DNA from: Haloarcula rubripromontorii
GTDB lineage: Archaea; Halobacteriota; Halobacteria; Halobacteriales; Haloarculaceae
Assembly (NCBI RefSeq): GCF_001280425.1
Contig: NZ_LIUF01000001.1
Location: forward strand, 248,001-312,000
DNA: 64,000 bases
Direction of reading: 5' to 3'
Shown: one piece after another, positions 6,646-14,861 of the stretch
Numbering within the stretch: position 1 is the stretch's first letter
Layout: each line of letters begins with the position of its first letter
Position numbers and translations under genes: made by a program
Notes under the pieces: model-generated
What the model was told of the DNA's origin: nothing
The model's input: the letters and a program-made list of their open reading frames with translations, nothing else
Database searches by the model: none

Positions 6646-8004
6646 TCAGCGGCGGGCTTCGGAAAGCGGTGATTCGGACCCGGTCACCACCGACTCGTCG
6701 TGAGCGATGCGGTCGGCGCACTCGAAGCCCGCGACGATGCCGCCGTTGAGCGACCGCTCCGGGTACTGGGCACGCGAAGCCATCCCAGCGTAGTAGAGGC
6801 CGTCCGCGACGGCGTCGCTCAGGTCGTACGGGATCACCATGTCGAGATATCCGCGCTCGTAGACCGGCGCAGTCCGTGGGTTTCGCCCCGTCCGAATCCA
6901 GTTGACGGTGTCGCGGTCGAACTCGGGAAAGAGCGCTTCGATGCCGTCCAGCCACGTCTCGGCGACCTCGTCGTCGCTCTGTTGCCAGATAGGCTCAGAT
7001 TCGTTCTGGATGTAGCGAGCGACGTACAGCAGATGCTCGCCGCCGTACCGTTCGGGAGAGACGAAGTTCGTGTGCTCGATGAGCGCACCGAACGGGGCGT
7101 CATCGGCGATGTTCAGCCAGTACGTATCTAGCAGGGGCTCGTCCATGCTGATGACCGAACACACCGTTCCCTGAAAGTCGATGTCGCAGGTATAGCCGGT
7201 CAGAGCTTCCAGCACGTTCGGCATCGTCGCGACGACGACGCTGTTGACATCGTGTACCGCCGTTCCGGTGCCGTCGGTGACCGTCAGCGACGAGACGGCC
7301 CCGCTGCTCGCGTCGATGTCAGTCACGCGCGTGCCAGTGAAGATATTGTCACGGCCGACGGCGTCGACCAGCGCGTCGAGCAATCGGCCGAATCCGCCGT
7401 CGAAGTAGCCCAGAATCTCACCGTTCAGGATGTCCCGCTCGCCGCGGAACTTGACCCGGCCGAGGAGCCATGCCGCGCTCACGTCGGCTTTCCGGTCGCC
7501 GAACTTCGCATCGAGCAGCGGCTCGAAGAAGTTCTCGTAGACCCCCCGCGTGGTGTGTTCGACGACGAACTCCTCGATAGGCACGTCCTCGAAGTCCTCC
7601 AGTCGCTCGTAGGTGTCAAACGAGGGGATGCCGCCGCGAACGTCGATATCGAGAACGAGCATCCCCAGCCGGAACGTGTCGTACAGCGAGAGATGGGGGT
7701 ACGAGAGGATTTCCCAGGGCTTGTCCATGGGGTGGACGACGCCGTCGACGTAGTAGGCGTTCTCCCCGATGTGCCACTCGACCGCGTCACCGAGGCCCAG
7801 TTCCGCGGCGAGTTCGACGATGGTCTCTTCGGACTTCGAAAGGTGGTGATAGAACTTCTCGATGGGGTCCCCGGCCGTCTCGTAGGTCGCTGCCAGGCCG
7901 CCGAGGTCCTCGCCCGCTTCGAACACACGGACCTCGTGGCCACGTTGCTGGAGCCGGTACGCTGCCGAGAGGCCGGCGATACCGCCACCGACGACGCCAA
8001 TCAT
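6646..8004 (-). CDS. FAD-dependent amine-oxidase-type oxidoreductase
   Basis: This 452-residue flavoprotein opens directly with the FAD-binding motif VVGGGIAGLSAAYRLQQRG (residues 4-22), followed by VFEAGEDLGGLA, the amine oxidase/protoporphyrinogen oxidase signature. A second conserved region near the C-terminus, GLYYAGMASRAQYPERSLNGG, closes the FAD site. The family includes phytoene desaturases, protoporphyrinogen oxidases and UDP-galactopyranose mutases. Here the closest recall is a haloarchaeal NAD(P)/FAD-dependent oxidoreductase often found with surface-polysaccharide genes. No such genes are next to it, so the substrate is open. The downstream neighbour is the convergent DUF6149-like gene. 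Confidence 0.85.
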   Translation of the reverse strand: MIGVVGGGIAGLSAAYRLQQRGHEVRVFEAGEDLGGLAATYETAGDPIEKFYHHLSKSEETIVELAAELGLGDAVEWHIGENAYYVDGVVHPMDKPWEILSYPHLSLYDTFRLGMLVLDIDVRGGIPSFDTYERLEDFEDVPIEEFVVEHTTRGVYENFFEPLLDAKFGDRKADVSAAWLLGRVKFRGERDILNGEILGYFDGGFGRLLDALVDAVGRDNIFTGTRVTDIDASSGAVSSLTVTDGTGTAVHDVNSVVVATMPNVLEALTGYTCDIDFQGTVCSVISMDEPLLDTYWLNIADDAPFGALIEHTNFVSPERYGGEHLLYVARYIQNESEPIWQQSDDEVAETWLDGIEALFPEFDRDTVNWIRTGRNPRTAPVYERGYLDMVIPYDLSDAVADGLYYAGMASRAQYPERSLNGGIVAGFECADRIAHDESVVTGSESPLSEARR

Positions 8005-11398: not shown

Positions 11399-13927
11399 TC
11401 AGGTGTCGTGTCGGACGGCGAGGAGCGCCGCGGCGACAAGCGCCACGAGCGCAACGGCCGCAGTAAAACCGGGACCGGATGCGGCCGTAGTGCCGGTATC
11501 GGTACTGCCCGTTGCGGTCTGTGCCTCGGTCGGCGCTGCAACCGCGCCGTCACTGCTCTCCGTCGGTGTCGGGGCTTCCGTCGGCCGGTCAGTCGGCTCT
11601 TCGGTCGTCGCCTCGGAACTGCTGGCGCTGGCATTCGAGGATTCCGCGGCGTCGTTTTCGACGGCCGCCGTGACGATACGGCCGTCTCCGTCGACAGCGA
11701 AACTGTCGCTATCCACGTCAAGGACATCCGCAGTGAAGTTCACGCCAGCTGCGTACTCGCTCATGTCGGCCGTGGCGGTGAACGTCCCGTTCGACGCGAC
11801 GGTCGCCGCGGGACGGCGAATGAACGGATTCGCCTCGCTCTCGGAGTCGAGGCTGACTTCGACCTCCGAACCGGGCGCGATAGTCGTCGTTCCCGAGACA
11901 GACTGGTTCGCGGCGGCCTCGACAGTCACGAGCCCGTCGGTCGCGTCGAGACCGGCGTCGCGCTCTGTGATTGTGTAGTTGGCCGTCCCGCTGTCGTCCT
12001 CGTCGGTCAGCCCCGTCGCGTCCGAGACGACGAACGTCGTCGTAACCTCGTCGTCGTCCCCGCGGATCGGTGTCCCACTCTGATAGTTCGCGCTCGCGAG
12101 TTCGACGGCGACAAAATACGTGTCGTTGTCGGGATCGTCGACGACGACAACGTTGCTGTCGTTGAGTCGTAGCGGGTCCGCGTCAGCGTTCGCACCGACG
12201 TTCGTCCGGTTGACCCAGATATTGAACGCGTCCCCGTCTCCGGTGGCTTGGAGGAACGCAGCCGTGGTGTCGCCCGCGCCCTCGACATCCGACCGGTAGT
12301 CGAGCGCGCCCTCGATACCGGTGGCAGTGATCCGGTGGACCACGATGTCACCGTCCGCGACCTCGCTCGACTGCGTGAGGTTCGCCCCGACGCGGTCGTG
12401 GATTCCGATATCCTCGTCCGTGAGGTCGGCGTCCTTCGGGGCGACCCAGCTCTGGACGCGCTCCGTCGAACGTGTTTCGAGGCGGAGCGTCCCAGTTGTA
12501 TCGGGGTCATCGCTCCTGCTCGTGCCGGCGGTTGCATTCATCTCGTAGCTGGCCGCCTCAAGCGCTTCGGCCGTGAGATCGTCTCGCGCGAACGAGCCAC
12601 TCTCGCTGACGCCGCTGATCTCGTCATCGCCCGAGACGCTGAGGACATCGCTCGCCGAAATGCTCGCGTTCCCGCTGTTGGGGACGCCCGCGAGGTAGCT
12701 GTTGAACAGGACGGTGACCTCACCGTCGCCGTCGTCGTCGGTGATCTGACCCGAGACGGCGTAGTTCTCCTCGCTTTCGTCCCCGATGACCACGTAGCCG
12801 TCGTCGGTGTTCTCGAACCGGTACGTGACGCTGACCACGTCGCCCCGCTCGTCGGAGACGACGCTGTTCTCGAAGCGCACCTCGCCCTCCTGTGCCTCGG
12901 AGACGCTGATGTCATCCGAGGTGACCGTGACGCCGGTCTGGTTATCCGTGACGCTGACCGTGTACGGTCCGTCGTCGGCAGACTGGCTGCCGAAATCGAA
13001 CTCGACAGACTCTGTTCCGTCGAGGATCTCGACCGCGGTGGCAACTTCGTCGCCGTCGCTGGCGGACAGCGTCGCGGTCGCCGCCGTCCCACCGCGGACA
13101 GATGTCACGTCGGCGGTGACACTGTCCTCGTCGGTGATATTTGTGTCCGCCTCGATGGTGAGGTCGAGGTCGCTGAGACGGAAGCCTGCGGTATCGGAGC
13201 CTGCGGTGATATCGTAGCGCTGTCCCGCGTCGAGGTCGTCCGTATCAAGGACGTAGACCTGGCTGTTGTCCGCATAGCTTCCATCGAGGACGACGCTCCC
13301 GCCGTCGGCCTCGACGAGCAAGTCAGAGTCAGGATCGGCGTCGATATCTTCGATAGCGATGACCTCGCCGTGATAGACGTTCACATCGGAGTCACTGCTG
13401 GAGGCCGGTGTGATCGTCTGGGAAGTCACGTCTATGTCTGTCGCGGTGACGGCGTCGCTCCCAAAGTCGGTGAGCGTCACCGTCAGGTTCCGGTCCGGCG
13501 TCACGTCTTCCGTAAGGTCGATTGCGACGCGGCCGCCGGTCCCATCCGCCTCGATGCTATCGACCAGCGTACCGGAGACGTCGTCGCCGTCAAGATAGAC
13601 TTCGAGTTCGCCGGTCCCGTCGAGTCCGTTCGTGACGGACCTGCTCAGCGCCAGTTCAACCGTACTCGCCCCACTGGCGTCGGAGTACTCGACTGCCTGC
13701 TCGACGCTCACGTTACTGGCGGCCGCCGCCGTCCCGGAGACAGCGACAGTTCCCGCGACCACTGACATCAGCAACAGCGCCGAGAGCAACACACTGCGGA
13801 GTTTCTCGGTCGCCCCTGTTCTCGATTCCGTTGTCGTGCGATCTGTCCACATCGACGATCTCCGCCGCAGACTTCGTGCGTCGTTCGGAGAGTCACGCCG
13901 AGTCGAACTATCGGCATTGCACACCAT
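11399..13927 (-). CDS. surface glycoprotein with haloarchaeal signal and PGF-type C-terminal anchor
   Basis: This is an 842-residue exported protein. Near residues 42-72, EKLRSVLLSALLLMSVVAGT leading to GTAAAA matches the signal peptide of haloarchaeal S-layer-type glycoproteins. The long middle is beta-rich with many Asp, Thr and N-x-S/T sites. A Thr/Glu/Pro/Ser linker (about 760-815) is followed by GPGFTAAVALVALVAAALL and Arg, a PGF-CTERM-like tripartite tail, processed in this class by archaeosortase ArtA and lipid anchored. The start may be 13927 or MWTDRT at 13852. A box A (CTATAT) about 33 bases upstream of 13927 favours the first. Promoter palindromes suggest metal regulation. Confidence 0.85.
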   Translation of the reverse strand: MVCNADSSTRRDSPNDARSLRRRSSMWTDRTTTESRTGATEKLRSVLLSALLLMSVVAGTVAVSGTAAAASNVSVEQAVEYSDASGASTVELALSRSVTNGLDGTGELEVYLDGDDVSGTLVDSIEADGTGGRVAIDLTEDVTPDRNLTVTLTDFGSDAVTATDIDVTSQTITPASSSDSDVNVYHGEVIAIEDIDADPDSDLLVEADGGSVVLDGSYADNSQVYVLDTDDLDAGQRYDITAGSDTAGFRLSDLDLTIEADTNITDEDSVTADVTSVRGGTAATATLSASDGDEVATAVEILDGTESVEFDFGSQSADDGPYTVSVTDNQTGVTVTSDDISVSEAQEGEVRFENSVVSDERGDVVSVTYRFENTDDGYVVIGDESEENYAVSGQITDDDGDGEVTVLFNSYLAGVPNSGNASISASDVLSVSGDDEISGVSESGSFARDDLTAEALEAASYEMNATAGTSRSDDPDTTGTLRLETRSTERVQSWVAPKDADLTDEDIGIHDRVGANLTQSSEVADGDIVVHRITATGIEGALDYRSDVEGAGDTTAAFLQATGDGDAFNIWVNRTNVGANADADPLRLNDSNVVVVDDPDNDTYFVAVELASANYQSGTPIRGDDDEVTTTFVVSDATGLTDEDDSGTANYTITERDAGLDATDGLVTVEAAANQSVSGTTTIAPGSEVEVSLDSESEANPFIRRPAATVASNGTFTATADMSEYAAGVNFTADVLDVDSDSFAVDGDGRIVTAAVENDAAESSNASASSSEATTEEPTDRPTEAPTPTESSDGAVAAPTEAQTATGSTDTGTTAASGPGFTAAVALVALVAAALLAVRHDT

Positions 13928-13930
13928 GCG

Positions 13931-13948
13931 TTTTAGGCAAGCCTAAAA
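13931..13948. promoter_or_regulatory. DtxR/Idr-like palindrome, copy 1
   Basis: TTTTAGGC AA GCCTAAAA is a perfect inverted repeat with 8-base arms, three bases upstream of the surface glycoprotein ATG and just downstream of its box A. The half-site TTAGGC matches the known operator type of DtxR/SirR/Idr iron-dependent repressors. A bound repressor here would block transcription start. Confidence 0.75.
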
Positions 13949-13968
13949 CAACACATATAGATTGTGGA

Positions 13969-13986
13969 TTTTAGGCTAGCCAAAAA
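13969..13986. promoter_or_regulatory. DtxR/Idr-like palindrome, copy 2
   Basis: TTTTAGGC TA GCCAAAAA repeats copy 1 with one arm mismatch and the same spacing. It lies 20 bases upstream of copy 1, on the other side of the box A of the surface glycoprotein gene, so the promoter is flanked by two sites. Confidence 0.7.
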
Positions 13987-14044
13987 ATATGAGGTTCACT
14001 GAACCGCATCATGCCGGTCTGGCTGTCTGAGTGGTTTGGCGTGT

Positions 14045-14062
14045 TTTTAGGTACGCCTAAAT
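14045..14062. promoter_or_regulatory. DtxR/Idr-like palindrome, copy 3
   Basis: TTTTAGG TACG CCTAAAT has the same TTTAGG-N4-CCTAAA core as copies 1 and 2. It lies in the intergenic region between the surface glycoprotein and adk and could serve either direction. A weaker related string (TTTACGCTAGCTAAAA, 14081-14096) follows it. Confidence 0.6.
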
Positions 14063-14210
14063 CATAAAGGCGTTCCGGTATTTACGCTAGCTAAAATGTC
14101 CCGGCGGCAGTTTGGGCGTGCTAGCATCCCACCACAATAGCGGGAGACGCAGCCCACTCCGACAGGCGCGTTTGGACAACCATTTAACCGACCCCTTAGA
14201 ATCCCTGCCC

Positions 14211-14861
14211 ATGTCGAATCCGCGAATCCTGATTCTCGGGCCGCCGGGAGCCGGCAAAGGAACGCAGAGCGCCAACCTCGCCGACGAGTACGGCGTCGAA
14301 CACATCACGACCGGTGACGCGCTCCGGGCGAACAAGGACATGGACATTAGCGACATGAACACCGAGTACGACACGCCCCGCGAGTACATGGAAGCGGGCG
14401 ACCTCGTCCCCGACGCGGTGGTCAACGCTATCGTCGACGAAGCGCTCTCACAGGCCGACGGCTTCGTCCTCGACGGCTACCCGCGTAACCTCGACCAGGC
14501 CGAAGAACTGGAAGGGATGACCGACCTCGACGTGATTCTCTCGCTCGATGTCTCGCGGGAGGAACTGGTCGACCGGCTCACCGGTCGCCGCGTCTGTGAC
14601 GACTGCGGAGCGAACTACCACGTCGAGTTCAACCAGCCCGAGGAGGAGGGTGTCTGCGACGAGTGTGGCGGCGACCTCATCCAGCGCGACGACGACAACG
14701 AGGAGTCCGTCCGCAACCGACTGGACGTGTTCGACGACAACACCGCGCCAGTCATCGACCACTACGAGGACCACGACGGCTTCGTCGCGGTCGACGGCGA
14801 GCAGACGCCCGACGAGGTCTGGAGCGAGATTCAGGCCGCTGTCGACGCACAGACGGCCTGA
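14211..14861 (+). CDS. adk: adenylate kinase
   Basis: This is a 216-residue long-form adenylate kinase that interconverts ATP, AMP and ADP. It starts at ATG 14211. The P loop [10 protein letters not shown] is at residues 9-18. The NMP-binding part includes TTGDALR and DGYPRN, and the LID (about 122-160) has a Cys4 zinc knuckle (CDDCG, CDECGG). The C-terminal [11 protein letters not shown] is typical. It leads the adk - DUF106 - cmk - truB cluster found in many archaea near ribosomal and secY genes. The earlier in-frame ATG at 14112 would add an unrelated N-terminus. Confidence 0.95.

Follow-up and report, generated by a model that had tools for sequence, protein, structure and literature searches.

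Paired DtxR-type operators at the promoter of an S-layer glycoprotein paralogue in Haloarcula rubripromontorii suggest a cell coat that responds to iron

The window analysed here, a 64-kb stretch (64,000 nucleotides) of the Haloarcula rubripromontorii genome, contains a gene for a large surface protein, for which we coin the name slg3, and, divergent from it, the adenylate kinase gene adk. Between the two genes lie 283 bp that hold four DtxR-like operators. The features on which the argument turns are the following.

11399-13927, minus strand: slg3, S-layer glycoprotein paralogue, 842 aa
13931-13948: operator 1, TTTTAGGCAAGCCTAAAA, a palindrome; overlaps the predicted transcription start, with the start codon 4 nt away
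13954-13960, minus strand: TATA box (box A) of the slg3 promoter P1, between operators 1 and 2, about 30 bp from the ATG
13970-13985: operator 2, TTTAGGCTAGCCAAAA (minus strand TTTTGGCTAGCCTAAA), one mismatch; lies over the BRE side of P1
14046-14061: operator 3, TTTAGGTACGCCTAAA, no mismatches
14063-14068, minus strand: candidate TATA box (TTTATG) of a distal promoter P2, between operators 3 and 4
14081-14096: operator 4, weak, TTTACGCTAGCTAAAA, three mismatches; 35 bp from operator 3
14183-14187: TATA box of adk (TTTAA)
14211-14861, plus strand: adk (adenylate kinase), with its own leaderless promoter; an unlikely operator target
Elsewhere in the source genome, L091:7049-7856 (G000:C2): DtxR-family operon, two small ORFs before a 140-aa gene (7049-7471), with ATGA-type overlaps

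The slg3 product consists, in order, of an N-terminal extension, a signal peptide of the halobacterial surface type, DUF7827, a BGTF surface domain, a short Thr/Ser stalk and PGF-CTERM. Signal peptide, DUF7827, BGTF and PGF-CTERM, together with homology over most of the length, are features of the Haloarcula S-layer glycoprotein superfamily, and over residues 37-754 the protein is about 50% identical to the products of the tandem S-layer genes of the source genome. Its match to NF041335 scores 315 bits, far below the equivalog cut-off of 1100 bits, so that, judged from its sequence, slg3 is a paralogue that falls outside the canonical S-layer proteins which this model describes. In a phylogenetic tree, the five slg3 orthologues included formed a single clade (support 100/100), which branches off next to the S-layer genes of genome G004. 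Read in this way, slg3 is a third, shortened S-layer glycoprotein paralogue in the genome.

The shortening affects the part of the protein nearest the membrane. In regular S-layer proteins, DUF7282 precedes the stalk; it is absent from slg3, with no Pfam match in the window protein or in the orthologues of G004 and G017, no counterpart in the alignment for G005 and G027, and none seen in the C-terminal sequence of G023. The slg3 tail is 90-103 residues long with a net charge of -8 to -12, as against 180-188 residues and -29 to -45 in regular S-layer proteins, and the segment 264-341 has 0-1 glycosylation sequons where the regular proteins have 5-6. At the other end, the extension places about 38 residues before the usual start of the signal peptide (13850-13927 in the window). 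It is found in orthologues, in two of which its first ATG is the sole in-frame ATG before the signal peptide; its length differences are in-frame ones of 9 nt, and its first 26 codons have no third-position bias (6/4/6). An AlphaFold model of the window protein with one relative has a mean pLDDT of 33.

An initial annotation of this DNA had claimed three strong DtxR-like operators and a weak fourth at the promoter of the surface gene, and counts far above chance bear this out. With up to two mismatches, the operator matches four times in the whole window, where 0.33 matches are expected, and three of these four are upstream of slg3. The intergenic region has three sites with at most one mismatch, compared to 0.0024 per dinucleotide shuffle (5000 shuffles, with a maximum of one site). 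A scoring matrix trained on genome sites outside the window, with the window's own sites left out, gave the four operators scores of 28.2, 25.6, 23.4 and 12.7, which rank first to fourth in the 64 kb; the next best position scores 6.8, leaving a gap of 6 bits below the fourth operator. Operator 4 is probably a real site, or a decayed real one, because its distance from operator 3 is the standard pair spacing of the regulon described below. Its variants in relatives range from a stronger site in Har. salina (TTTAGGCGAGCCAAAA) to decayed ones in two others.

The same operators recur across the genome. Exact TTTAGG-N4-CCTAAA sites number 15 in the 4.0-Mb source genome (G000) versus none for the reversed pattern, and sites with at most one mismatch number 33 versus one. 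At up to two mismatches, the count (52) is no higher than that of the reversed control (66), and our use was therefore limited to sites with no or one mismatch, or to weaker ones at the standard pair spacing. Exact sites are present in all 32 Haloarcula genomes, with 3-18 in each, and the reversed control found one match across all of them. Most operator sites lie at genes for siderophore synthesis and for siderophore or iron transport, where the gene calls come from a codon-usage script and some starts may be wrong. For synthesis, the neighbours are an IucA/IucC synthetase with an FhuF domain and a class III aminotransferase; for uptake, they include at least six genes for Peripla_BP_2 siderophore-binding proteins, an iron-type ABC solute-binding protein with its ABC operon, and an ABC transporter gene with membrane and ATPase domains. 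NifU and a ZIP transporter are also among them, the latter with a one-mismatch site. A search of the genome for the motif near siderophore genes, which the initial annotation had proposed, thus finds the same operators at genes for IucA/IucC, siderophore-binding proteins and iron ABC transporters, and at a dtxR operon. In this operon, the first of three ORFs (68 and 60 aa, then the 140-aa DtxR-family gene) has a leaderless start with an operator pair at it, and this position implies that the operon would be autoregulated.

Close operator pairs follow a common plan: 10 of 12 are spaced 35, 36 or 38 bp and enclose an A/T-rich box. Along the sense of transcription, the upstream operator reaches as far as the BRE region; a gap of 19-22 nt with the TATA box follows, and the downstream operator covers the predicted start. 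In several cases an ATG comes 4-8 nt further on, which makes these genes leaderless. Operators 1 and 2 of slg3 match this layout, with the order TTTTGGCTAGCCTAAA-ATCCACAATCTATATGTGTTGT-TTTAGGCTTGCCTAAA-ACGC-ATG, and the earlier statement that two operators flank the box A of the surface gene agrees with the position of the TATA box on the minus strand. Since this box is about 30 bp from the ATG, the P1 transcript, whose start is itself placed from the TATA box, is predicted to be leaderless or nearly so. The TTTATG between operators 3 and 4 is placed as are the TATA boxes of other regulon pairs, and its ATAAA is conserved in the four slg3 orthologues linked to adk. This suggests that operators 3 and 4 form a second pair at an upstream tandem promoter of slg3, P2, the transcript of which would have a leader of some 110 nt.

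Orthologues of slg3 occur in six of the 32 Haloarcula genomes, with 60-87% identity and in at least two genomic locations. An operator pair is present at all six; the spacer diverges, but operator 2, the upstream one, has the same sequence throughout. In G017 and G023, slg3 lies elsewhere in the genome (in G023, on a 3.4-kb contig), with the pair and the TATA box retained and with a GTG as start codon at an unchanged distance; in G017, it is near a siderophore-binding-protein gene that has an operator of its own. It appears that slg3 and its operators have moved between replicons. Since only six of the 32 genomes carry it, slg3 is dispensable. No operator was found upstream of the other S-layer-type genes whose loci were examined, the two main S-layer genes of the source genome included. 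The G017 slg3 locus (L110:7037-17384) and a locus of the source genome without slg3 (L098:3150-9958) have common neighbours, namely a 414-aa MGMFERD gene, a siderophore-binding protein gene and a 356-aa gene.

Regulation of slg3 by DtxR-type operators is well supported by the sequence, in keeping with the initial annotation's view of a metal-regulated surface gene: the operators are those of iron-uptake genes and of a dtxR operon, and they have been kept with slg3 in six species. Operators 3 and 4 are located upstream of adk, in the interval that separates it from slg3, and might control adk, in which case the intergenic region would be divergently regulated. We give this next to no credence and have rejected it, for the TATA box that these two operators enclose is a minus-strand one, placed as in the other pairs of the regulon, and adk keeps its own TATA box in nearly all of 30 Haloarcula adk loci, with or without slg3. 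In four of these loci, which make up one clade and not four independent events, slg3 is upstream and the operators are present; the 26 others have neither slg3 nor operator sites. (A tRNA gene suspected by eye upstream of adk in genomes without slg3 was found by neither ARAGORN nor Rfam.) As to the metal, the half-site had been attributed to an iron- or manganese-dependent repressor; the DtxR-type half-site stands, and iron is much better supported than manganese as the metal. Iron is the likely signal because the operators are mostly at iron-acquisition genes. The iron and manganese motifs of the DtxR family resemble each other, at least three clear members of the DtxR family in the source genome exceed the Pfam cut-off, the ZIP transporter has its one-mismatch site, and operators alone do not tell which of several DtxR-family proteins binds them or which metal it senses; all this leaves room for a regulator of the SirR/TroR/MntR type that would have slg3 made on manganese starvation. 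The concentration of sites at siderophore and iron genes makes such a regulator unlikely, as does the lack of any site with at most one mismatch in 13 kb around the longest DtxR-family gene (C13, locus L105).

The protein itself bears on two further explanations. The initial annotation had supposed a metal- or haem-binding surface protein, and slg3 could capture metal or haem like an iron-regulated surface receptor; it belongs to the iron regulon, and in G017 it adjoins the siderophore-binding-protein gene. However, the supposition does not hold up against the protein, and we consider it improbable: compared to S-layer proteins, slg3 has gained no domain and lost one, its sole Cys is residue 3 of the N-terminal extension, its His number 4-7 against 3-6 in ordinary S-layer paralogues, and Tyr and Met are no higher. 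No haem or metal domain was found with Pfam or NCBIfam, and a PDB sequence search with slg3 gave no match. The role was rejected on these two counts, domain and ligand-residue enrichment. A less specific explanation would be that slg3 is a decaying, little-used S-layer duplicate with an old promoter, as its rarity in the genus, the lost domain and the weak, variable fourth operator might indicate. Decay is very improbable, since the reading frames are open in all six orthologues, codons 42-340 have a third-position bias (24/12/69 differences), and operator 2 has been preserved next to a diverging spacer.

The reading we prefer, to which we assign a probability of about 0.72, is that slg3 encodes an S-layer isoform repressed by an iron-loaded DtxR/Idr protein and made on iron starvation; the cell would probably change its coat as its iron is depleted. 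With ample iron, an iron-loaded DtxR-family repressor, presumably of the Idr type, would occupy the operators that flank the TATA box and so block TBP and TFB from the upstream side and the polymerase at the start site; the second pair would probably do the same at the distal tandem promoter. Under iron limitation, the repressor would leave, by analogy with what is known of DtxR repressors, and slg3 would be made, exported, glycosylated, anchored via its PGF-CTERM tail, and would join or partly replace the normal S-layer. We infer that the resulting lattice would differ in spacing, glycan cover or permeability, because slg3 lacks DUF7282, its stalk is shorter and much less acidic, and its third segment is nearly free of sequons. 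The altered lattice could plausibly make it easier for ferric siderophores to reach the binding proteins beneath it.

The structure of the Haloferax S-layer is relevant here: the lattice is described as relatively impermeable, with a pore of about 13 Å, the lining of which has negative residues and bound cations, and its inter-hexamer contacts lie in the C-terminal domains D4-D6 (PMC8640222). Because of this location of the contacts, a subunit whose C-terminal part differs could plausibly alter them, by analogy; the domain loss could also stop slg3 from entering the lattice. That slg3 replaces or dilutes the normal subunit on iron starvation and gives a coat that is thinner and more permeable, with less acidity and less glycosylation, through which ferric siderophores would get to the membrane, so that the S-layer would be a part of iron uptake, is a speculative extension that we regard as doubtful.

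Among known systems, the nearest are the haloarchaeal DtxR-family regulators: Idr1 and Idr2 of Halobacterium, and Idr, SirR and TroR of Haloferax volcanii (PMC11349517). The present regulon resembles theirs in having DtxR-family genes, one of them in an operator-bearing operon, and in its siderophore synthesis and transport targets; it differs in having an S-layer glycoprotein paralogue as a target. No such haloarchaeal DtxR target was found in the accessible literature, though it may have been reported elsewhere. The bacterial DtxR/IdeR consensus is TTAGGTTAG(G/C)CTAACCTAA (PMC1382209). Shared with it are the TTAGG/CCTAA half-sites, the dyad symmetry and repression by promoter overlap; here, however, the operator is TTTAGG-N4-CCTAAA, shorter between the half-sites, and is paired around an archaeal TATA box.

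Tandem S-layer genes in Haloarcula are exemplified by csg1 and csg2 of Har. hispanica (PMC8640222). Like such tandem glycoproteins, slg3 is of the same family, is about half identical to its own genome's pair and has the PGF-CTERM anchor; in contrast, it is an unlinked third copy without DUF7282, with the shorter, less acidic stalk, few sequons in 264-341, the N-terminal extension and DtxR-type operators. With csg of Haloferax volcanii it has in common, by family and not by model, that both are haloarchaeal S-layer glycoproteins with a PGF-linked anchor; csg, though, is the single main S-layer gene, and the available part of the same paper mentions no iron regulation for it (PMC8640222).

An iron-controlled S-layer isoform would offer a direct genetic handle on how ferric siderophores and similar nutrients cross a tight archaeal S-layer, with one gene and one inducing condition. 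The operators also show clearly how a DtxR-type repressor would be arranged on a leaderless promoter of an archaeon: the TATA box is enclosed by a pair of operators spaced 35-38 bp.

Some members of the regulon touch on other functions. A GT2 glycosyltransferase gene and an RGP-like (PF03214) gene beside the iron ABC transporter carry upstream operators (L095:3432-4179; L094:12624-13819, G000:C3), and surface glycans may also change with iron. Genes for a DUF5059-plastocyanin and for an HhH-GPD base-excision-repair protein, both with operator pairs in front of them (L092:5560-9333, G000:C2), are unusual members of such a regulon; the plastocyanin would be consistent with copper electron carriers taking the place of iron ones. 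Another pair separates a FAD-dependent oxidoreductase gene from an RPE65-type carotenoid oxygenase gene (L097:8137-10821, G000:C4). Finally, an exact operator abuts the ATG of a PAS-histidine kinase gene that is divergent from a pyridine-nucleotide-disulphide oxidoreductase gene (L101:6713, G000:C5).
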